Positions 52,388 to 64,000 of a stretch of 64,000 nucleotides of DNA are shown here, piece by piece. This DNA comes from Acidobacteriota bacterium (GTDB lineage Bacteria > Acidobacteriota > Blastocatellia > Pyrinomonadales > Pyrinomonadaceae). How positions within the stretch are numbered: the stretch's first letter is position 1; every line of letters starts with the position of its first letter. A program made the translations under genes and the position numbers. The notes beneath the pieces were generated by a model. The model saw only the letters and a list, made by a program, of their open reading frames with translations, made no database searches and was not told the origin of the DNA. The stretch spans positions 100,412-164,411 of the forward strand of contig JAFDVJ010000018.1 in the NCBI GenBank assembly GCA_018269075.1. Direction: 5' to 3'.

Positions 52388-52870
52388 CCCGGTCCAGCCC
52401 GATCCGACGGTACTTCAGCGTGAGCCGGAGGTACTTCCGGCTGATCCGAAGCTACTTCCGGCTGATCCGGAGGTACTTCAGACCGATCCGAAGCTACTTC
52501 CGGCTGATCCGGAGGTACTTCCGGCTGATTCGGAGGTACTTCCGCGTGAACCGGCGGTACTTCAGACCGATCCGAAGCTGCTTCCGCGTGAACCGCTGCT
52601 GCTTCAGCGCAATCCGACGGTACTTCAAGGCCGACCGGCACTGCTTCGGCTCAATCCGATGGTACTTCAAGGCCGACCGACGCTGTTTCGGGCCTGACAA
52701 AGGGAGCTTCCGGCCGGTCAGGTAGCGTTGACGGCCGGTCACAAGACCGTTCAAGCCGGTCGGCAGGCAGTTTCGGCCGACTGGAAGGTCGTGCCGTCCC
52801 GATCGGAGATGGTTACGCCCCGTCAAGTGGCAGTTACCGGCTGTCAGCGGGCAGCTTCGCGCCGTCAAGG
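52388..52870. repeat. 21-bp tandem array, about 22 in-phase units
   Basis: From 52409 to 52870, units stay exactly 21 bp apart. The first are highly alike (GGTACTTCCGGCTGATCCGGA type); later ones decay to a pattern like GGCAGTTnnnGGCCGTCAnn but keep phase up to the left end of element copy 2. The 21-bp unit equals two helical turns. Reading frames open on both strands only because 21 is a multiple of three. Confidence 0.85.
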
Positions 52871-53138: not shown

Positions 53139-53369
53139 CAATATCGCGGAATTAAAGTTCAATATCGCGATATTAAAGTTTAATATCGCGATATTAAACT
53201 TTAGAATCGCGATATTAAACTTTAGAATCGCGATATTAAACTTTAGAATCGCGATATTAAACTTTAGAATCGCGGTTCCAAGCTTTAGAATCGCGATTCT
53301 AAGCTTTAGAATCGCGGTTCCAAGCTTTAGAATCGCGGTTCTAAGCTTTAGAATCGCGGTTCCCGAAAC
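53139..53369. repeat. 21-bp tandem array of palindromic units (11 copies)
   Basis: Eleven units of exactly 21 bp. Each holds a palindrome such as AATATCGCGATATT or AGAATCGCGATTCT, plus a 7-bp AAACTTT/AAGCTTT spacer. The first unit directly abuts the right end of element copy 2. The units drift from AATATCGCG... to AGAATCGCG... along the array. The 53370-53541 stretch upstream of the cysteine gene has no further gene. Confidence 0.95.
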
Positions 53370-55214: not shown

Positions 55215-56732
55215 ATGAGCGATAACCCGAAAGACGACGATTGGGGAATGACGATGCCGAACCTGCGGCTCGACGACGACCGGAAAAAGGACGTTTCGCC
55301 CGGCTTTCAGCCGAAGGCGGAAGCGGTCCCGAGCCCGCCGCCCGAGGACGATTGGGGAATGACGACGCCGAACGTCAAGGTTCCGCCGGGCGCCGCGCCG
55401 CCCGCGGCGAGCGAGCCGTTTTCGGATTTCGACAAGACCGCGCCGAACATCAATCTGCCGTCGCCCGCGTCCGAAACGCCGAAAGCGGCCGCGCCGCCGC
55501 CCGTCGACGACTGGGGGATGACGACGCCGAACGTCGAGATTCCGAAAGCGTCGAAAAAGGACGACTGGCAGATGCCCGAGCCGACGTTCCGCGTCTCGGA
55601 AGGCGCGAAGCCGAGCTTCGACAAGCTCTCGCCGCCCAGAGATATCGGCTCGTTCGACGATGAAGACGAGGGCCACAAAACGACGCCCTACTACCGCCTG
55701 CCCGAAAATCAGGCCGAACCGGCCGCCGCCGCCGCGCCGCCGCGCGAAGAATCTGCGCCGCCGCCGTCCCGGCCGAAACCCGCGCCCGCCAAAAGCGGAA
55801 ACGCCAAGTGGATCCTGATGCTCGGCGGACTGTTCGTCTTTTTCCTGCTCGTCACGGCCGGTCTGGTCGCCGCGTATTTTCTATATTTCAGCACTTCGAA
55901 CACCGTCAAGAGCGTGACCAACGCGAAGTCGCCGGAGACCGCGCCCTCGGTCGCGCCGACCGCCGCCCCGGCCGCCGCGCTGCCGGCGAGCATCGATTAC
56001 AAGGGCCGGATGGTGCTCGTCAAGGCGGGCGAGTTCACGATGGGCAGCGACACCGCCGGCGACGAGTCGAAACCCGCGCACAAGGTCACCGTGCCGGGCT
56101 TTTACATCGACCGCACGGAAGTCACCAACGCGCAGTACAAAGAATTCTGCACGGCGACCGGCAAACAGCCGCCGCCCGACCCGTTATGGGACAAGGGCTA
56201 TTTCGAAAAACGGCCGAACGCGCCGGTCTTCGGCGTCTCGTTCGACGATGCGAAAGCCTTCGCGGCGTGGGCCGGCAAACGTCTGCCGACCGAGGAGGAA
56301 TGGGAAAAGGCCGCGTCGTGGAACGAGGCGACGCAGACCAAGACGGATTATCCGTGGGGCGCGGCGTTCGAAGCCGGCAAGGCCGCCTTCGGGCTCGACG
56401 CGCCGAAGGACGTCGGCGCGTATCCGGCGGGCGCGAGTCCGGCGGGCGTGCTCGATATGGCCGGCAACGTCGCCGAATGGGTCGACGCGTACTTTCAGCC
56501 GTATCCCGGCAACACGGCTTCGAATCAGAATTTCGGGGAAAACAACCGCGTCGTCCGCGGCGGGCATTTCGGATCGAAAACCAACGATCTGCTGAAAACC
56601 ACGAAACGAATTTACGTCCCGCCGAACGTCGCGTCGGGCGAGGACGAGAAAACGCTGTTCGCCGCCGCGATCGGTTTTCGGTGCGCGGTTTCGGCCGACG
56701 ACGCGCGGCTGCAGGACGCTTTAAAAAAATAG
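55215..56732 (+). CDS. SUMF1/FGE-domain membrane protein with repeated WGMTTPN motifs
   Basis: A 505-residue protein, ATG preceded by TGGAGGAAGA. The cytoplasmic N-terminal half (1-190) is Pro/Ala/Asp-rich and repeats a short motif: DDDWGMTMPN (7-16), EDDWGMTTPN (about 45), DDWGMTTPN (about 97), with weaker relatives DDWQMPEPT and FDKTAPNINL. A helix (about 195-225) leads to a periplasmic SUMF1/formylglycine-enzyme-like domain (about 260-500, MVLVKAGEFTMGSD, DRTEVTNAQYKEFC, RLPTEEEWEKAA, GNVAEWVDAY, IGFRCAV). SUMF1 domains accompany some kinase and secretion systems. The Thr motif could be a phosphorylated docking site for the three FHA proteins that follow (inference). Whether the oxygenase is active is not shown. 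Confidence 0.88.
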   Translation: MSDNPKDDDWGMTMPNLRLDDDRKKDVSPGFQPKAEAVPSPPPEDDWGMTTPNVKVPPGAAPPAASEPFSDFDKTAPNINLPSPASETPKAAAPPPVDDWGMTTPNVEIPKASKKDDWQMPEPTFRVSEGAKPSFDKLSPPRDIGSFDDEDEGHKTTPYYRLPENQAEPAAAAAPPREESAPPPSRPKPAPAKSGNAKWILMLGGLFVFFLLVTAGLVAAYFLYFSTSNTVKSVTNAKSPETAPSVAPTAAPAAALPASIDYKGRMVLVKAGEFTMGSDTAGDESKPAHKVTVPGFYIDRTEVTNAQYKEFCTATGKQPPPDPLWDKGYFEKRPNAPVFGVSFDDAKAFAAWAGKRLPTEEEWEKAASWNEATQTKTDYPWGAAFEAGKAAFGLDAPKDVGAYPAGASPAGVLDMAGNVAEWVDAYFQPYPGNTASNQNFGENNRVVRGGHFGSKTNDLLKTTKRIYVPPNVASGEDEKTLFAAAIGFRCAVSADDARLQDALKK

Positions 56733-56787: not shown

Positions 56788-57669
56788 ATGAAACCAGAAA
56801 AAACAACAAATTCAAAGCGCTTAAAACTCAAGTTTATCATCTTCGGCTTCGGGATTTTGACGCTCTTCGCCGGCGCGGCGAGCGTCGCCGCGCAGGTCGA
56901 CGACGTGATGATCGTCAGGCAGAAGGCAAAGACGACGATCCGGCCGAAAGCCAAGCCGGTCGCCAAAAAGGTCAACATCACGCGGAAGGTGACGATCGTC
57001 CGCGTCGAGAAGAAAAGCCGGACGAATTATAAGAAATCGACCCCGAAACCGACCGTCAAAAAGGTCGTCAGAACCGTTCAGGTCCCGCTGCTCGCGGCGC
57101 AGCTCCGCCTGCTGACGGTCGACAAGGAAGGCAAGGAGACCGAGGTCAATCCGGCCGCCGCCTTTATGCCGAACGACCGTCTGCGGATGTCGATCAAGGC
57201 CAACCAGACCGGTTATCTCTACGTCATCCGGCAGGCCGCGCCCGAAGCCGACGGCGAGATCATCTTTCCGACGACGCTCGTCAACAACGGCAGCAATCTC
57301 GTCAAGGCGAACGTCGAATACGTGATCCCGCGCAACTGCCCGGCGGAATACGCGCCCGAGCCGCGCGACTGCGCGCTCCAGCTCTTTCCCTACGCCGACG
57401 CGCCGCAGGAATATTTCACGCTGATCTTCATGCGCGACAGTCTGGTCGATCTGCCGAACGACGTCAAAAACACGCGCGTCAGCCTGCAGAACCTGATGAG
57501 CGCCGGCAAGATCGGCGCGAAGACGCTGATCGACCTGATCGAGGATTCGGGCCAGGACCTCGTGTCGCAGCCGGGCGATACGCCGTTCGCGGTGCGGATC
57601 GTGAACATCAACCCGAAGGACAACGAGGAGATCATCGAAACCTTCGTTCTCGGCAAAATGAAGAAATAA
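56788..57669 (+). CDS. DUF4384 secreted protein
   Basis: A 293-residue protein with a basic N-terminus and signal segment (about 15-35, IFGFGILTLFAGAASVAAQ), then a very basic Lys/Pro linker (VRQKAKTTIRPKAKPVAKK). The DUF4384 domain (about 105-220) shows MPNDRLRMSIKANQTGYLYVIRQ, typical of the family. DUF4384 often pairs with kinase or secretion-related genes. It lies 55 bp after the SUMF1 gene and 79 bp before the first FHA gene, on the same strand. Probably periplasmic. Confidence 0.88.
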   Translation: MKPEKTTNSKRLKLKFIIFGFGILTLFAGAASVAAQVDDVMIVRQKAKTTIRPKAKPVAKKVNITRKVTIVRVEKKSRTNYKKSTPKPTVKKVVRTVQVPLLAAQLRLLTVDKEGKETEVNPAAAFMPNDRLRMSIKANQTGYLYVIRQAAPEADGEIIFPTTLVNNGSNLVKANVEYVIPRNCPAEYAPEPRDCALQLFPYADAPQEYFTLIFMRDSLVDLPNDVKNTRVSLQNLMSAGKIGAKTLIDLIEDSGQDLVSQPGDTPFAVRIVNINPKDNEEIIETFVLGKMKK

Positions 57670-57748: not shown

Positions 57749-59260
57749 ATGGCGCGGGCAATCTTAAAATTCGACGACAGGGAAATGGCGATCGGCGAGG
57801 ACGCGACGAGCTTCGGCCGGACGGCTGAGAACACGGTCGCGTTTCCCGACAATACGAACATCTCGCGCCGGCACGCCGAGATCGAGTTCAAAGACGGCCG
57901 GTTCGTCGTCACCGACCTCGGCAGCAGCAACGGCACGACCATCAACGGCCAGCCGATCAGCGGCGAGACCGAACTCAACGACGGCGACTTCATCACGCTC
58001 GGCAATTCCGTGATCGTCGAATTCGTGCTCGAGGACGAAACGCCCGACGACGCCGAAGACGACGCCGCCGGCGCCGCTCAGAGCGAATCCGTCGCCGAGG
58101 CGAAAACGGCCGAAAGCGCCGGCAAATCGTCGCGGATGCCCGTCATTCTCGGCCTCACCGGCGCGGCCTGCGGCCTCGCGATCGTCTTCGCGGCGGCGGC
58201 GAGCTACGTTTACTTTTCCGGCGGCGGCAGCACGGGCTGCGACGCGACCGCGCGGATCGTCAGCCCGCTCAACGGCGACGTCATCTCCGAAACGACCGAG
58301 ATCCGTGTCGAAGTCAAAAATTCGGCCTGCGTGAGCGTCGTCCGCGTGATGCTCGAAGGGCAGGAAATCGCCCAGCTCCGGAGCGAGCCGTACACCGCGC
58401 AGATCGATCCGAAGGAGCATCCCGACTGGGCCAACGGCCGTCTTTACGGGCTTTCGGTCGTGCTCGAGGACGCGGCCGGCAACAAGCTCCCGCAGTCGTC
58501 GCGCGACATCGCCCTGCAGTTCGAGACGAAAAAAGTCGCGACGCCGACGCCGACCGCGACCGCCGAGATCTCGCCGACGCCGACGATCGGCCCCGGCCCG
58601 CAGGTGACGCTCATCGACATCCAGACGATGACGGCCCGAACGGTCGGCAAATTCACCGGCGCGAGCTTCAAATACAATCTTTCGAATCCCGAATTTCTGA
58701 AGGAAGTCCAGAAAAAAACCGGCGAATATTCGGCGGCCGGAGGCTATTTCGAGCGCGCCGCCGTCTATCGCGACACGATCAACAACGCGTTCGTCCGCGA
58801 CAAGAATCTCGACCCCTCGCTCGGCTTCCTGCTGGCAATGAGCCGCAGCAAGTTCAATCCCGAAAAACAGGGCGCGAACGAAGGGCTCTGGCAGATGTCC
58901 GGCGATTTCGCGACGGCCAACGCCTACAACGTCGTCTGCCCGGCGTTCAACCTGTCGGAAACCACGCAGGAATGCGCGGCCAAGGTCGCGTCGTTCTACC
59001 TCGGCGACCTGATGACGGCCTTCGACGGCGACATCGTCTACGCGGTCGCCGCGTTCGGGAAAACGCCGCAGGAAGCCAATGAATGGAAGGCTTCGCTGCC
59101 GGCCGACCGCGCGGATTTCTGGAAGATCATCACGGATCAGGCGCAGCGCGAACAGGTCGTCCGCTTCTTCGCGGCCGCCGCCGTCGCGGAAAACCCGCCG
59201 AAATTCAAACTTAAAAAGGATCGGTCGATCTCGGAGCTGTACCCGACCGTCGGCAAATAG
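57749..59260 (+). CDS. FHA - TM - Ig-like - transglycosylase-fold protein (degenerate active site)
   Basis: A 503-residue protein. Residues 20-95 form an FHA phosphothreonine-binding domain with G23-R24, S39-R-R-H42 and SSNGTTING (59-67). An acidic linker leads to a transmembrane helix (about 131-155), an Ig-like region (about 166-250) and a C-terminal domain (about 300-495) with the lysozyme/SLT fold. In place of the catalytic Glu motif it reads LLAMSRSKFNPEKQGANEGLWQM, so Ser replaces Glu. The FHA domain faces the cytoplasm and the SLT-like part the periplasm. It is the first of three such paralogues before tssK, spaced 4 bp from the second. Confidence 0.85.
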   Translation: MARAILKFDDREMAIGEDATSFGRTAENTVAFPDNTNISRRHAEIEFKDGRFVVTDLGSSNGTTINGQPISGETELNDGDFITLGNSVIVEFVLEDETPDDAEDDAAGAAQSESVAEAKTAESAGKSSRMPVILGLTGAACGLAIVFAAAASYVYFSGGGSTGCDATARIVSPLNGDVISETTEIRVEVKNSACVSVVRVMLEGQEIAQLRSEPYTAQIDPKEHPDWANGRLYGLSVVLEDAAGNKLPQSSRDIALQFETKKVATPTPTATAEISPTPTIGPGPQVTLIDIQTMTARTVGKFTGASFKYNLSNPEFLKEVQKKTGEYSAAGGYFERAAVYRDTINNAFVRDKNLDPSLGFLLAMSRSKFNPEKQGANEGLWQMSGDFATANAYNVVCPAFNLSETTQECAAKVASFYLGDLMTAFDGDIVYAVAAFGKTPQEANEWKASLPADRADFWKIITDQAQREQVVRFFAAAAVAENPPKFKLKKDRSISELYPTVGK

Positions 59261-59264
59261 AAAG

Positions 59265-60695
59265 ATGATTGAAGCGATTCTGACATATTCGACCGATGAA
59301 GAAACCGGCGAGATTCCGCTCGGCGAGGGCAAGGTTTCTTTCGGGCGCGGCAGCGAGGCCGACCGCCGCTTCGCCGACGACGGGCTCTCGCGGCTTCACG
59401 CGACCGTCCACCGCGAGGGCGACAACATCTGGATCCTCGACGAGAATTCGACTAACGGCAGCTTCGTCAACGGCGAGCCCGTCCGGCCGAACGGGACGAT
59501 CCTCTACGACGGCGACCGGATCAAAATCGGCAACCACACGACGCTGACGGTCCGGATCGGCGGCAAAAAGGCGGCGGCGGCCGACAAACCGGCGACGGTC
59601 GCCGTTTCCGGCGCGTCCGAAACGCCCGGCTTCCCGCTGCTGATCCCGGTCGCGCTCGCCGGTTTCGCGGTGCTCGTGATCGGCATCTCGATCGCCTTCA
59701 TCGGCTACCGGGCCTTCGGCGGCGGCGGCCCCGAGATCGCCGACGAGACGCCCTACGAAACCGAAACGCCGGACGATTCGAACAATCGCAGCGAGAACCG
59801 GAATGCGAGCAAAACGCCGAAGCCGTCGCCGTCGGCGAGCGAATCGACGAACGGCAACGCCAACACCGAGACGATCTCGAACACGACCGTCGAGACGAAC
59901 AACAACGGCCAGACCGTGACGCTGCCGAAAGGCCGCTACCAGGATATGTCGGAAGACGACAAGAACCGCTACGTCGCCGTCAAGGCCGAGAAGATCGCGC
60001 GGATCATCGGCAACCAGACGAGCGACCCGATCCCGCCGGAGGCCGTTCAGGAGATCAAGCGGTTTCTCGGCGGCTACGTCAGCCGGCTGAACAAGTCCAA
60101 AAAGGACACCTGCGATCAGGGCAGCTGGGTTTCGAGCGATTTCACGAGCGTCCTCAACCGCGCCACGCGGACGAGCCCGTTCATCGTCCGCAGTTTTCGC
60201 GCGAAGGGGATCGAGCCGCAGATCGGGCTCTACGTGGCGATGATCGAGAGCGAGCACTGCGCGTGTCTGACGAGCTCGACCGGCGCGAAGGGGATGTTCC
60301 AGTTTCTCGCCTCGTCGTCGGGCGATTACGGGCTCGATCCGGCCCAGCGCTGCGATCCGGAGCAGTCCGCGAGAGCCGGCGCGCAGTATCTGACGTCGCT
60401 GATCACCCGTTTCGGGACCGCGCCCGACAGCGTGCCGCTGGCGATCGCCAGCTTCAACAGCGGGCAGGGCAATCTGAGCAAGAATCTCGACACGCTGTTC
60501 TCCGGCTCGGGCGGGCAGAACCGCAGTTTCTGGACGCTCGCGGCCAACAAGGGGATGCTGCAGGGCAAGGCCGGCAAGCAGTTCAACGACGAGAACATCA
60601 AGTACGTCCCGAAGTTTTTCGCCGCCGCGATCATCGGCGAAAACCCCCGGGATTTCGGCGTCGACCTGGAGCCGTTATCGACCTATACGAAATGA
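59265..60695 (+). CDS. FHA - TM - lytic transglycosylase protein (active-site Glu present)
   Basis: A 476-residue paralogue of the preceding gene. The true start is the ATG at 59265, four bases after the previous stop. FHA: G27-R28, SRLH (42-45), STNGSFVNG (62-70). Transmembrane helix about 122-150, then an Asn/Ser/Thr-rich linker (about 160-220). The C-terminal SLT domain (about 310-430) has the catalytic E328 in AMIESEH and the downstream SSTGAKGMFQF and SFNSGQGNL, as in active family-1 lytic transglycosylases that cleave peptidoglycan. It may open the wall for the type VI machine. Cys pair at E328 region (CAC) is unusual. Confidence 0.9.
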   Translation: MIEAILTYSTDEETGEIPLGEGKVSFGRGSEADRRFADDGLSRLHATVHREGDNIWILDENSTNGSFVNGEPVRPNGTILYDGDRIKIGNHTTLTVRIGGKKAAAADKPATVAVSGASETPGFPLLIPVALAGFAVLVIGISIAFIGYRAFGGGGPEIADETPYETETPDDSNNRSENRNASKTPKPSPSASESTNGNANTETISNTTVETNNNGQTVTLPKGRYQDMSEDDKNRYVAVKAEKIARIIGNQTSDPIPPEAVQEIKRFLGGYVSRLNKSKKDTCDQGSWVSSDFTSVLNRATRTSPFIVRSFRAKGIEPQIGLYVAMIESEHCACLTSSTGAKGMFQFLASSSGDYGLDPAQRCDPEQSARAGAQYLTSLITRFGTAPDSVPLAIASFNSGQGNLSKNLDTLFSGSGGQNRSFWTLAANKGMLQGKAGKQFNDENIKYVPKFFAAAIIGENPRDFGVDLEPLSTYTK

Positions 60696-60766
60696 AGTGG
60701 AGAGTGGAGAGTGGAGAGTGGAGAGAAATTTCCTGACTCTCCACTCTCCACTCTCCACTCTCCACT
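60696..60766. repeat. inverted heptamer repeats (4 x GTGGAGA / 4 x TCTCCAC), 30-bp perfect stem
   Basis: Four perfect GTGGAGA units (60697-60724) face four perfect TCTCCAC units (60738-60765), forming a 30-bp perfect stem with an 11-base loop. It starts one base after the stop of FHA gene 2 and ends 7 bp before the ATG of FHA gene 3, so it covers the third gene's ribosome site region. It could attenuate transcription or control translation. Confidence 0.95.
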
Positions 60767-60772
60767 CGAAAG

Positions 60773-62017
60773 ATGACCGAACTTTGGCTCAAATTCAAAG
60801 ACGAACGCGGCGCCGACCGGCGGGTTCCGGTCGGGGGCGGCCGGTTCATCGTCGGCCGTCACTCGGAAAGCGATCTCTGCATCCCGAGCAGTCAGCTGTC
60901 GCGCCGTCACATCCAGATCGAGGCGTTCGCCGAAGTCTTCGTCGTTTCCGACTGCGGTTCGAGCAACGGGACGACGCTCAACGACCGGCCGCTGACCGAG
61001 CCGGTCGCGCTCCGGGACGGCGACGTTCTGAATCTCGGTGGCGGCGTCGAGATCGCGGTCGAGCTGATCGCCGACCGGCCGCAGGCCCGGAAAAGAGAGG
61101 AAAAATCGCCGGGTGCGGCGGCTGTTGCGGGCGGCGGCGCGGCGGGCGGCGGCGATGCTTCGTCGATCCCGACGGCCGTTTTCCTGATCGCGCCGGCGCT
61201 CGTCCTCGTGATGCTCGTCTGCGGGGGCGGCGGGCTTTATTTTTACGGCGGACTCGGCGGCCCGAACACCGACGGGAACCGCGATGTCAGCTTTTCCCCG
61301 ACGCCGGACGAGACGCCCGTCAAGCCGAAAGACTCGCCGACGCCCGCGCCGACCGGCCCGGCCGGCAACGCGACGCCGGGCCCGACCGCCGCGCCCGAAG
61401 GCTCGGAGACGCCCGTCGAGTCGGACGAAAAAAGGTCGGTCGAGAAAAATGCCGCGCTCTTTCTGCAGCGCATCGCGCGCAAGGACCCGAACGCGTTTCT
61501 GACGACTTCGCAGGCCGAGCTCGTGAACTCGAAAATCGCGCCGCTCAAGGGTTCGGGCGCGCTTGCCGACAACCTTAAGGCCGTCAAAAGCAACGCCTCG
61601 CAGTTTCAGTCGCTCGCCCAGTCGAAGGGCCTGACGCCGATGTTTCTGGCGGCCGCCGCGCTCAACGAACTCGGCGCGAACCGCGGCAATCCGCTCGACA
61701 CGGCGAAGGCGATGCTGCCGGTGCTCGCCGAGCTGCGGCCGACGCTCGACAACACGCTCGCCGACGACAACCTGCTGATCATCGCCGCCTACGATCAGGG
61801 CAAGGCCGGCCAGTCGCGCAAGCTGCAGAACATCCTCGAAGCGCTCGGCAAAAAATCCGGCGTCAACCCGCGCGAGATCCGGACGATCTGGTTTCTTAAG
61901 GAGCAGGACAAAATCACGGACGCCGAATATCAGTACGCACTCCGTTTTCTGGCGATCGGCACGATTATGCAGAATCCGAAGGATTTCAACGTCGGCGCCG
62001 AGGCGGTCACTTTTTAA
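60773..62017 (+). CDS. FHA - TM - degenerate transglycosylase-fold protein
   Basis: A 414-residue third paralogue. FHA: G28-R29, SRRH (43-46), SSNGTTLN (63-70). Ala/Gly-rich stretch, transmembrane helix about 133-160, then a Pro/Thr/Glu-rich linker (about 165-220). The C-terminal part (about 225-414) keeps the helical layout of the SLT domain (MFLAAAALNELGANRGN) but lacks the Glu and the GAKGMFQF segment, so it is probably inactive. The long hairpin just before its start may uncouple its expression from genes 1 and 2. Only six bases separate it from the YkgJ-like gene. Confidence 0.85.
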   Translation: MTELWLKFKDERGADRRVPVGGGRFIVGRHSESDLCIPSSQLSRRHIQIEAFAEVFVVSDCGSSNGTTLNDRPLTEPVALRDGDVLNLGGGVEIAVELIADRPQARKREEKSPGAAAVAGGGAAGGGDASSIPTAVFLIAPALVLVMLVCGGGGLYFYGGLGGPNTDGNRDVSFSPTPDETPVKPKDSPTPAPTGPAGNATPGPTAAPEGSETPVESDEKRSVEKNAALFLQRIARKDPNAFLTTSQAELVNSKIAPLKGSGALADNLKAVKSNASQFQSLAQSKGLTPMFLAAAALNELGANRGNPLDTAKAMLPVLAELRPTLDNTLADDNLLIIAAYDQGKAGQSRKLQNILEALGKKSGVNPREIRTIWFLKEQDKITDAEYQYALRFLAIGTIMQNPKDFNVGAEAVTF

Positions 62018-62022
62018 AGCTT

Positions 62023-62808
62023 ATGGAAAAAGAAACGGAATGGATCACCGGCCAAATCAGACTGTCGATCGACGGCACGCCGCTTGAAATGGAGATGACC
62101 GTTCCGGCGCGGCCCGTCAAACCGCAGCGGATGCTGCCGATCTTTCAGCAAATGGCGGATTCGTTCGTCCAAATCGGGATCGACGCCGTCCAAAGTACGG
62201 GCCGGAAAATTTCCTGCGCGAAAGGCTGCGCGGCGTGCTGCCGGCAGCCGGTGCCGCTCGCCGAGATCGAAGCCTACCGGATCGCCGAAATCGTCGCCGA
62301 ACTTCCCGAACCGCGCCGCGCCGCGATCAAAAGCCGCTTCGACGAAGCGTGCCGGCGGCTCTACGCGATCGGCTGGTTCGAAAAGCTCGACCGCTGCGCG
62401 CATCTGCCGGCCGGCGAACGCGAAAAGGTCGTGCTCGAATATTTCGCCGAAAACGTGCCGTGCCCGTTTCTCGAAGACGGCGCGTGCTCGATCTACGCGG
62501 ACCGGCCGCTCGCCTGCCGCGAGTATCTGGTGACGTCGCCGGCCGCGAACTGTTCGGCGCCGTCGCGGGAAACCGTTCGCCTGATCGAGCTCCGGATCAG
62601 ATCGGCGGCGACGCTCCGGAGCCTCGGCGACAGCCGGAATCTGAACGCGGTCGTCAATTTTCTGCCGCTCGTGCTCGCGCTCAAATGGACGGAAGTCCAT
62701 CCGGACGATTTCCCGGAAAAGACCGGCGAGCAGTGGATGGCGGATTTTTTCCGGAAATTGACGAAGAACCCGATTCCGGCGGCGAAAAATAATCCGCCGA
62801 AATCCTGA
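62023..62808 (+). CDS. YkgJ-family cysteine-cluster protein
   Basis: A 261-residue cytoplasmic protein. Its conserved Cys set reads CAKGCAACCR (about 66-75), DRCAHLPAGE, PCPFLEDGACSIYADRPLACREY and later NCSAP, the pattern of the YkgJ zinc/iron-chelating domain (PF03692). Some members are thought to modify or chelate metals; function is mostly unknown. It lies 6 bp after FHA gene 3 and 107 bp before tssK, so it is probably part of this transcript. Alternative: a maturation factor for an iron-sulfur or metal protein. Confidence 0.88.
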   Translation: MEKETEWITGQIRLSIDGTPLEMEMTVPARPVKPQRMLPIFQQMADSFVQIGIDAVQSTGRKISCAKGCAACCRQPVPLAEIEAYRIAEIVAELPEPRRAAIKSRFDEACRRLYAIGWFEKLDRCAHLPAGEREKVVLEYFAENVPCPFLEDGACSIYADRPLACREYLVTSPAANCSAPSRETVRLIELRIRSAATLRSLGDSRNLNAVVNFLPLVLALKWTEVHPDDFPEKTGEQWMADFFRKLTKNPIPAAKNNPPKS

Positions 62809-62915: not shown

Positions 62916-64000
62916 ATGAGCAAATATCGCAAAATTGTCTGGAACGAGGGAATGCTCCTGACGCCCCATCACTTTCAGCAGTGGGACAACTATCACGAAG
63001 AATTCTTAAATTCGCGGGTCCGCTCGCTGATGCCTTACGAGTACGGCATCCTCGATCTGCAGATCAACCGCGAGGCGATCGCCAACGGTAATTTCCAGAT
63101 CATCAACTGTCACGCCGTCCTGCCCGACGGGCTGATGATCAACGTTCCCGACGCCGAGGCCGTGCCCGATCTGCGGCCGGTCGGCAATCATTTTCATCCC
63201 GAAGCGGAAAAGCTCGGCGTTCATCTGGCGATCCCGGCCAAGAAGATGGGCGAGGCGAATTTTCAGGGAAACGGCGTCAAATCGGGCGGCAACCTGCGGT
63301 TTCTGCAGGAAGCGGCGCTCGTCAAGGACGAAACGAGCGGCACCAACGAACAGCCGCTCGCCTACGCGAAAAGCAATCTGCGTATCATTTTCGACGACGA
63401 GGTCCGCGACGGCTTCACGTCGATGAAGATCGCCGAGCTGGTGCGCACGCCGACCGGGCAGTTGATGATCAACGAGGACTACATCCCGCCGACGCTCAAG
63501 TCGTCGGCCTCGGTCTGGCTCGTCAATATGCTCCGGCAGCTGGTCGAAATCCTGAACACGAAATCGGGCAGCCTCGGCGAGCAGCGCCGCCAGCGCAACG
63601 CCAGTCTGGCGGATTTCACGACCTCGGAAGTCGCCGTTTTCTGGCTCCTGCACACGATCAACTCGTCGATCCCGACGATGGCGCATTTTTTCCGTTCGCC
63701 GCTGCTGCACCCCGAAAAACTGTATCTCGAAATGGCCGAAATCGTCGGAAAACTGATGACGTTTTCGACCGAACTCTACCCGCGCGACATCGTCAAGTAC
63801 GACCACGACGATCTGCATTTCACGTTTTTCAATCTTTCGACGCAGCTCAAGGAGCTGCTCGAAACGGTGATCCCGAGCCGCTGCGTGCCGATCCCGCTCG
63901 AAAAGACGCGCGAGACGCTGTATGTCGGCCGCGTCGAGGACGAGCGCCTGCTCAAGGAAGCCGGGTTCTATCTCGCGGTCCGCGCGCAGATGCCCGAATC
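62916..64000 (+). CDS. tssK: type VI secretion baseplate protein TssK (3' end outside window)
   Basis: The frame is open to the window edge for 361 codons. It begins SKYRKIVWNEGMLLTPHHFQQWDNYH, matching the W-x-EGMLL-x-PqHFQ opening of TssK/ImpJ-like proteins. Later MAHFFRSPLLHPEKLYLEM and LYPRDIVKYDHDDL are also typical. TssK is the trimeric baseplate subunit that connects the tail to the membrane complex (TssJLM). A TATAAT hexamer at 62898-62903 may be a -10 site, but no matching -35 is seen. Its presence next to three FHA proteins indicates a type VI gene cluster continuing to the right. Confidence 0.95.
   Translation, partial: MSKYRKIVWNEGMLLTPHHFQQWDNYHEEFLNSRVRSLMPYEYGILDLQINREAIANGNFQIINCHAVLPDGLMINVPDAEAVPDLRPVGNHFHPEAEKLGVHLAIPAKKMGEANFQGNGVKSGGNLRFLQEAALVKDETSGTNEQPLAYAKSNLRIIFDDEVRDGFTSMKIAELVRTPTGQLMINEDYIPPTLKSSASVWLVNMLRQLVEILNTKSGSLGEQRRQRNASLADFTTSEVAVFWLLHTINSSIPTMAHFFRSPLLHPEKLYLEMAEIVGKLMTFSTELYPRDIVKYDHDDLHFTFFNLSTQLKELLETVIPSRCVPIPLEKTRETLYVGRVEDERLLKEAGFYLAVRAQMPE

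Follow-up and report, generated by a model that had tools for sequence, protein, structure and literature searches.

The window, the whole 64,000-nucleotide stretch analysed, came from a 7.4 Mb genome, where it lay on the 190-kb contig C79. Judged by its relatives, the genome belongs to the Blastocatellia (Acidobacteriota), close to Pyrinomonadaceae MAGs. A type VI secretion system (T6SS) cluster extended from position 55215 past the end of the window, with every gene on the + strand. Its gene order was FGE membrane protein, DUF4384 protein, G1, G2, G3, CxxCxxCC protein, and tssK. The FGE-domain membrane protein (55215..56732; Pfam FGE 1.2e-51), encoded two genes upstream of G1, had a long cytoplasmic tail, one transmembrane (TM) segment at aa 195-228, and a periplasmic FGE-sulfatase (SUMF) domain. 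The DUF4384 protein (56788..57669; Pfam DUF4384 1.5e-7) had an N-terminal hydrophobic segment and was probably exported; its gene adjoined the FGE gene in relatives also. G1 (57749..59260, 503 aa) combined FHA, TM, Big_7, and a putative SLT-fold pseudoenzyme, G2 (59265..60695, 476 aa) combined FHA, TM, and a predicted SLT lytic transglycosylase, and G3 (60773..62017, 414 aa) combined FHA, TM, and a degenerate helical SLT/lysozyme-like domain. A longer G2 ORF from 59079 corresponded to an in-frame start upstream. The CxxCxxCC protein (62023..62808; Pfam PF03692 1.7e-8) was a putative metal-binding protein of the YkgJ type, and in most relatives its gene likewise separated G3 from tssK. The tssK gene (62916..64000, continuing beyond the window; Pfam T6SS_VasE 4.7e-100) began the tssK-L-M cluster. 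One operon was suggested by the close spacing: G1 and G2 are 4 bp apart, and the CxxCxxCC gene follows G3 after 5 bp. The preliminary description had placed three neighbouring FHA-TM-periplasmic genes here, followed by a YkgJ-like gene and tssK; this arrangement was confirmed by the ORFs, the Pfam FHA matches, the single hydrophobic segment of each protein, and the PF03692 and T6SS_VasE matches.

Past the window, tssK was followed by a small gene of the 23S-rRNA-IVP type, tssL, tssM, impE/tagJ, tssA, tssB, tssC, and hcp; then by tssE (ORF L009:13655-14140), tssF, tssG, clpV, a small SLT protein, and vgrG; and last by DUF4123, PAAR, WHH nuclease, and SUKH immunity-type genes. The core T6SS set (TssA, B, C, D, E, F, G, H, I, K, L, M, and PAAR) was present, and TssJ was not found in it. 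The TssL of this cluster had a DotU match only, with no wall-binding domain. The small gene, which encoded a protein of the 23S rRNA-intervening-sequence type (L009:3715-4140), was inserted between tssK and tssL. The small SLT-like protein between clpV and vgrG (167 aa, L010:1132-1635) was searched for a hydrophobic segment, and none was found. The DUF4123 adaptor, PAAR, WHH nuclease, and SUKH immunity genes formed an effector-like module 3' of vgrG (L010:4055-6566).

All three proteins of the triad had an FHA domain above the Pfam cut-off (1.6e-19 for G1, 3.6e-16 for G2, and 3.7e-17 for G3) with the motifs GR, SRRH/SRLH, and S-NG. Each had one strongly hydrophobic segment, at about 129-158 in G1, 120-154 in G2, and 128-161 in G3. 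By the usual logic, the FHA domains are cytoplasmic. G1 also carried the Big_7 (Ig-like) domain (Pfam 2.1e-7). The C-terminal domain of G2 matched SLT (PF01464) at 1e-14 and 54.5 bits, against a curated cut-off of 21.3, and G2 was identified from its sequence as a bona fide SLT fusion. The SLT match of G1 was under the curated cut-off (0.0028, 17.7 bits vs 21.3), and G3 had no Pfam SLT match. Profile-profile comparison by hhalign aligned G1 with G2 at probability 99 and E 9e-18, the AlphaFold model of G1 had a pLDDT of 94, and Foldseek matched it to MltD/Slt70 with probability 1.0; a predicted SLT fold of G1 is established by these three approaches. G3 aligned with the C-terminal half of G2 at probability 96 and E 4.5e-9 over about 105 columns, and its profile found nothing useful among PDB sequences. 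The AlphaFold model of G3 had a pLDDT of 95.8. Its best Foldseek matches included MltD, MltF, MltC, and goose lysozyme, and these were weak, with probability 0.80-0.85 but E>0.1 and a TM score of about 0.4-0.47. Homology of the three C-terminal domains is shown, most weakly for G3. The SLT-like fold proposed for the three C-terminal halves was thereby recovered by Pfam for G2, by AlphaFold and Foldseek for G1, and at low significance by the same two methods for G3. MltD, a family 1 lytic transglycosylase, was the nearest solved structure to the G2 SLT domain by sequence (2e-15) and to G1 by fold. The MltD protein carries LysM domains but lacks FHA, and G1 and G3, unlike MltD, were without the catalytic Glu.

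The catalytic Glu328 of G2 (codon 60246..60248, + strand) was kept in 54/54 sequences, as were each of the other SLT motif residues, Gln346, Asn398, and Tyr447. Of 47 G1 sequences, 44 had Arg at the equivalent position, 2 had Gln, and 1 had Glu; the residue in the present protein is Arg366. The lone Glu belonged to a deep-branching copy ('TSESKF' in L060), which suggested that G1 decayed from an active ancestor. In the alignment of G3, a far-diverged copy, the active-site region was gone. Judged by these residues, the triad is one candidate enzyme (G2) and two predicted pseudoenzymes (G1 and G3). The preliminary description had joined phosphothreonine (pThr) sensing and wall cutting in one protein, in triplicate. 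The first part stood, in that FHA and SLT are combined in one T6SS-tied inner-membrane protein; wall cutting by all three was rejected because only G2 keeps the Glu. In a FastTree tree, the G1 clade had a support of 0.997 and the G3 clade 0.995, and the G2 sequences grouped at 0.936 in a near-clade that took in one FHA-less copy. These clades indicated that the triplication is old and arose before the sampled families diverged.

Among 347 Acidobacteriota genomes, full-length FHA-SLT was confined to Blastocatellia, where it was present in 20/21 tssK+ genomes and 0/18 tssK- genomes (Fisher 3e-10, uncorrected for relatedness). FHA-SLT genes apart from a T6SS had been set beforehand as the observation that would count against the proposal, and the tssK- genomes of the class supplied none. 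Most members of genus g3 have the system; one of its genomes, G157, had neither tssK nor FHA-SLT. FHA-SLT2 was found in 53 of 80 named loci and the full triad in 42. Recurrence of G1-G2-G3 in order in these 42 loci, 39 of them with tssK in the stretch, showed that the arrangement is not due to chance. SLT relatives without FHA occupied 26 loci, none of which had tss genes. When tssK was missing from the stretch of an FHA-SLT genome, it was found elsewhere in 9/10 genomes tested; the tenth, where no tssK was found, was a 3.0 Mb MAG (L118). In genus g7, G2 and tssK were on different contigs, so linkage is not absolute, and co-occurrence holds. The triad is conserved and T6SS-bound, and FHA-SLT is a putative T6SS-dedicated wall enzyme in the sense of being encoded in and restricted to T6SS. 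Beyond Acidobacteriota, two peptide patterns were searched over 84,980 species, a scope within which unrelated FHA-SLT fusions may exist elsewhere.

Outside Blastocatellia, two T6SS+ Acidobacteriota (G125 and G269) had a canonical TagH, with FHA and T6SS_FHA_C, encoded directly before tssK. No TagH was above the curated cut-off in the nine T6SS+ Blastocatellia genomes tested. The FHA proteins G1-G3 scored 40-51 with TIGR03354, vs a cut-off of 120.25, and had no match to PF20232 (T6SS_FHA_C). TagH orthology of the triad was ruled out by these two models. Like TagH/Fha, the triad has an N-terminal FHA with the pThr-binding Arg/Ser/Asn, lies before tssK, and is T6SS-linked; unlike TagH/Fha, it lacks T6SS_FHA_C, has a TM segment and a periplasmic SLT domain, and is present in three copies. 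The triad occupies the slot held by TagH in other Acidobacteriota, and it most likely takes the TagH role.

The pThr-binding Arg/Ser/Asn were kept in 47/46/46 of 47 G1 sequences, 54/54/52 of 54 G2 sequences, and 47/47/43 of 48 G3 sequences, and were degenerate in some outer-branch members. A kinase inside the T6SS cluster was considered and rejected, since no kinase gene is encoded there. Of the 66 kinase-domain matches in the genome, the closest on the same contig lay at its 14-17 kb position, some 140 kb from the cluster. FHA without PpkA/PppA has a precedent in V. cholerae TagH (PMC10482370). In one relative (L109), a kinase gene ended about 2.5 kb upstream of G1. In another, a Ser/Thr kinase-FGE fusion (L131:2735-4867) lay at the equivalent place and was followed by DUF4384 and the FHA-SLT triad. 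The FGE fold is the fold of TagR, the activator of PpkA. The PpkA-PppA-TagQRST-Fha1 pathway of the P. aeruginosa H1-T6SS shares with the present locus an FHA output and an adjoining FGE-domain envelope protein; unlike in that pathway, the cluster is without a kinase gene and the output protein carries its own SLT domain.

The cytoplasmic tail of the FGE protein contained five T-x-P-N/Y motifs and one WxMPxPxF motif. The latter, in the form WxMPxPxF[RQ]x[TS]xG, was located at 55566-55589 of the window in a disordered part of the tail. Among relatives (L086-L124), a single-TM protein with the WxMPxPxF motif was encoded just upstream of G1 in 32/43 loci. In most of them, a tail-anchored protein of about 150 aa with WxMPxPxF[RQ] took the place of the FGE-protein tail. 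The upstream protein with WxMPxPxF[RQ] is a natural candidate for a partner of the FHA domains. The T-x-P-N repeats might serve as short pThr motifs; this is put forward as a hypothesis only, because the repeats, clear in close relatives, had shrunk to one TTP motif or were absent in the others.

The three kinds of SLT domain also occurred in natural fusions. FHA-SLT2-SLT3 fusions were found in L129 and L130, and a 1403-aa protein beside a kinase gene (L126:3240-7450) consisted of FGE, an active-type SLT2, and a dead-type SLT1. These fusions suggested that the SLT domains work jointly.

The best explanation, considered somewhat probable, is that the triad is a Blastocatellia T6SS envelope complex uniting the TagH role with a dedicated wall opener. 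G1, G2, and G3 likely form an inner-membrane hetero-oligomer. In the cytoplasm, the FHA domains would play the TagH/Fha role by docking on a phosphothreonine in a partner from the T6SS or from signalling; in the periplasm, the SLT domains would act on or bind peptidoglycan. G2, as a lytic transglycosylase, would open a local wall gap for TssM, and the dead paralogues G1 and G3 would hold, position, or restrain G2. Complex formation, the enzyme activity of G2, phospho-dependence, and action at the T6SS site are presumed here. A phospho-gated wall cutter is possible but doubtful; in it, the three FHA domains, by docking on pThr, would directly bring one active transglycosylase domain and two dead ones to the assembly site. 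If it were true, a single hetero-complex would combine the TagH switch with the opening of the wall in T6SS biogenesis.

The main rival, considered unlikely, is a sensor: binding or sensing of peptidoglycan or of envelope damage would be the chief task of the SLT domains, and wall cutting a minor one. The case for it comes from sister SLT domains, which form fusions with kinases encoded beside ECF sigma genes and with an M56 peptidase. In L136, L146, L148, and L155, a Ser/Thr kinase-TM-SLT gene was directly preceded by an ECF sigma gene, and further kinase-TM-SLT genes were found in L065 and L069. Kinase-TM-SLT loci also held a divergent SLT-only gene, and their genomes were without tssK, which was absent from the five genomes reached via kinase-SLT loci. 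Kinase-TM-SLT with ECF sigma is possibly a wall-sensing kinase-sigma system. A BlaR1-type M56 peptidase was fused to the SLT family of the triad in L138:8867-10729. These kinase-SLT and M56-SLT relatives suggest that the family is able to serve as a sensor too. Loss of the active site in two of the three SLT copies, the TagR fold of FGE, and the kinase-FGE fusion upstream of the L131 triad point the same way. The proposed route, in which FHA relays to the baseplate (TssK) or to a kinase as in the TagQRS-PpkA-Fha pathway, is unlikely to the same degree. Against a sensor, the four catalytic motif residues were invariant in G2 and would be needless in a pure binder.

An anchor is quite improbable. 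As a ring or clamp, the triad would then hold the membrane complex to the wall and stand in for TssJ or for a peptidoglycan-binding TssL/TagL. The DotU-only TssL of the host is in line with this, and TssJ was above the cut-off in 0/21 T6SS+ Blastocatellia genomes. The absence is unspecific, however, since TssJ was also undetected in 23/30 T6SS+ genomes searched outside the class. TssJ replacement was weakened as an explanation by this count, and for the same reason it is not claimed that the triad replaces TssJ. The FHA domains of the triad cross-matched the YscD cytoplasmic model, and the triad shares a cytoplasmic FHA, a single TM, and a periplasmic part with the T3SS ring proteins YscD/PrgH and with GltG (gliding). 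The periplasmic part has an SLT fold in the triad vs ring-building domains in those proteins. That the FHA domains make structural contacts only, as in YscD/PrgH-type ring proteins, is equally improbable, and the kept catalytic and pThr residues argue against an anchor. General cell-wall or envelope-stress proteins merely beside the T6SS are very improbable: the separate contigs of genus g7 would fit such a chance neighbourhood, but FHA-SLT presence tracks T6SS even when unlinked and the two are jointly absent in G157, a co-occurrence that contradicts this explanation and nearly refutes it.

Wall enzymes serving T6SS are known. MltE is recruited by TssM and required in the EAEC T6SS, and TagX opens the wall for T6SS in Acinetobacter (PMC10433429, PMC10482370, PMC10564176). 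Both resemble the role proposed for G2, a wall enzyme serving T6SS envelope assembly, but MltE is a separate housekeeping enzyme, TagX is a separate membrane enzyme, and neither is described with FHA (PMC10433429, PMC10564176). Phospho-dependent FHA binding is also known, as Agrobacterium Fha binds pThr-TssL (PMC10433429, PMC10482370). The ingredients are each known in T6SS; the fusion, the triad of one active and two dead copies, and the displacement of TagH are undescribed in the literature searched. No description of an FHA-transglycosylase fusion or of Blastocatellia/Acidobacteriota T6SS was found in the open-licence literature searched. Passage of T6SS through its own wall and phosphorylation control of its assembly have so far been separate questions with separate proteins. 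Here, a putative wall enzyme and a phospho-reader are covalently joined and conserved lineage-wide, so a link between phospho-control and wall opening is testable. The pattern of one active and two dead copies also offers a natural model of how pseudoenzymes control wall enzymes.

Elsewhere in the window, two arrays of 21-bp tandem repeats were observed at 52395-52691 (about 11 copies) and 53143-53358 (about 10 copies), both located ahead of a cysK/CBS-type gene.
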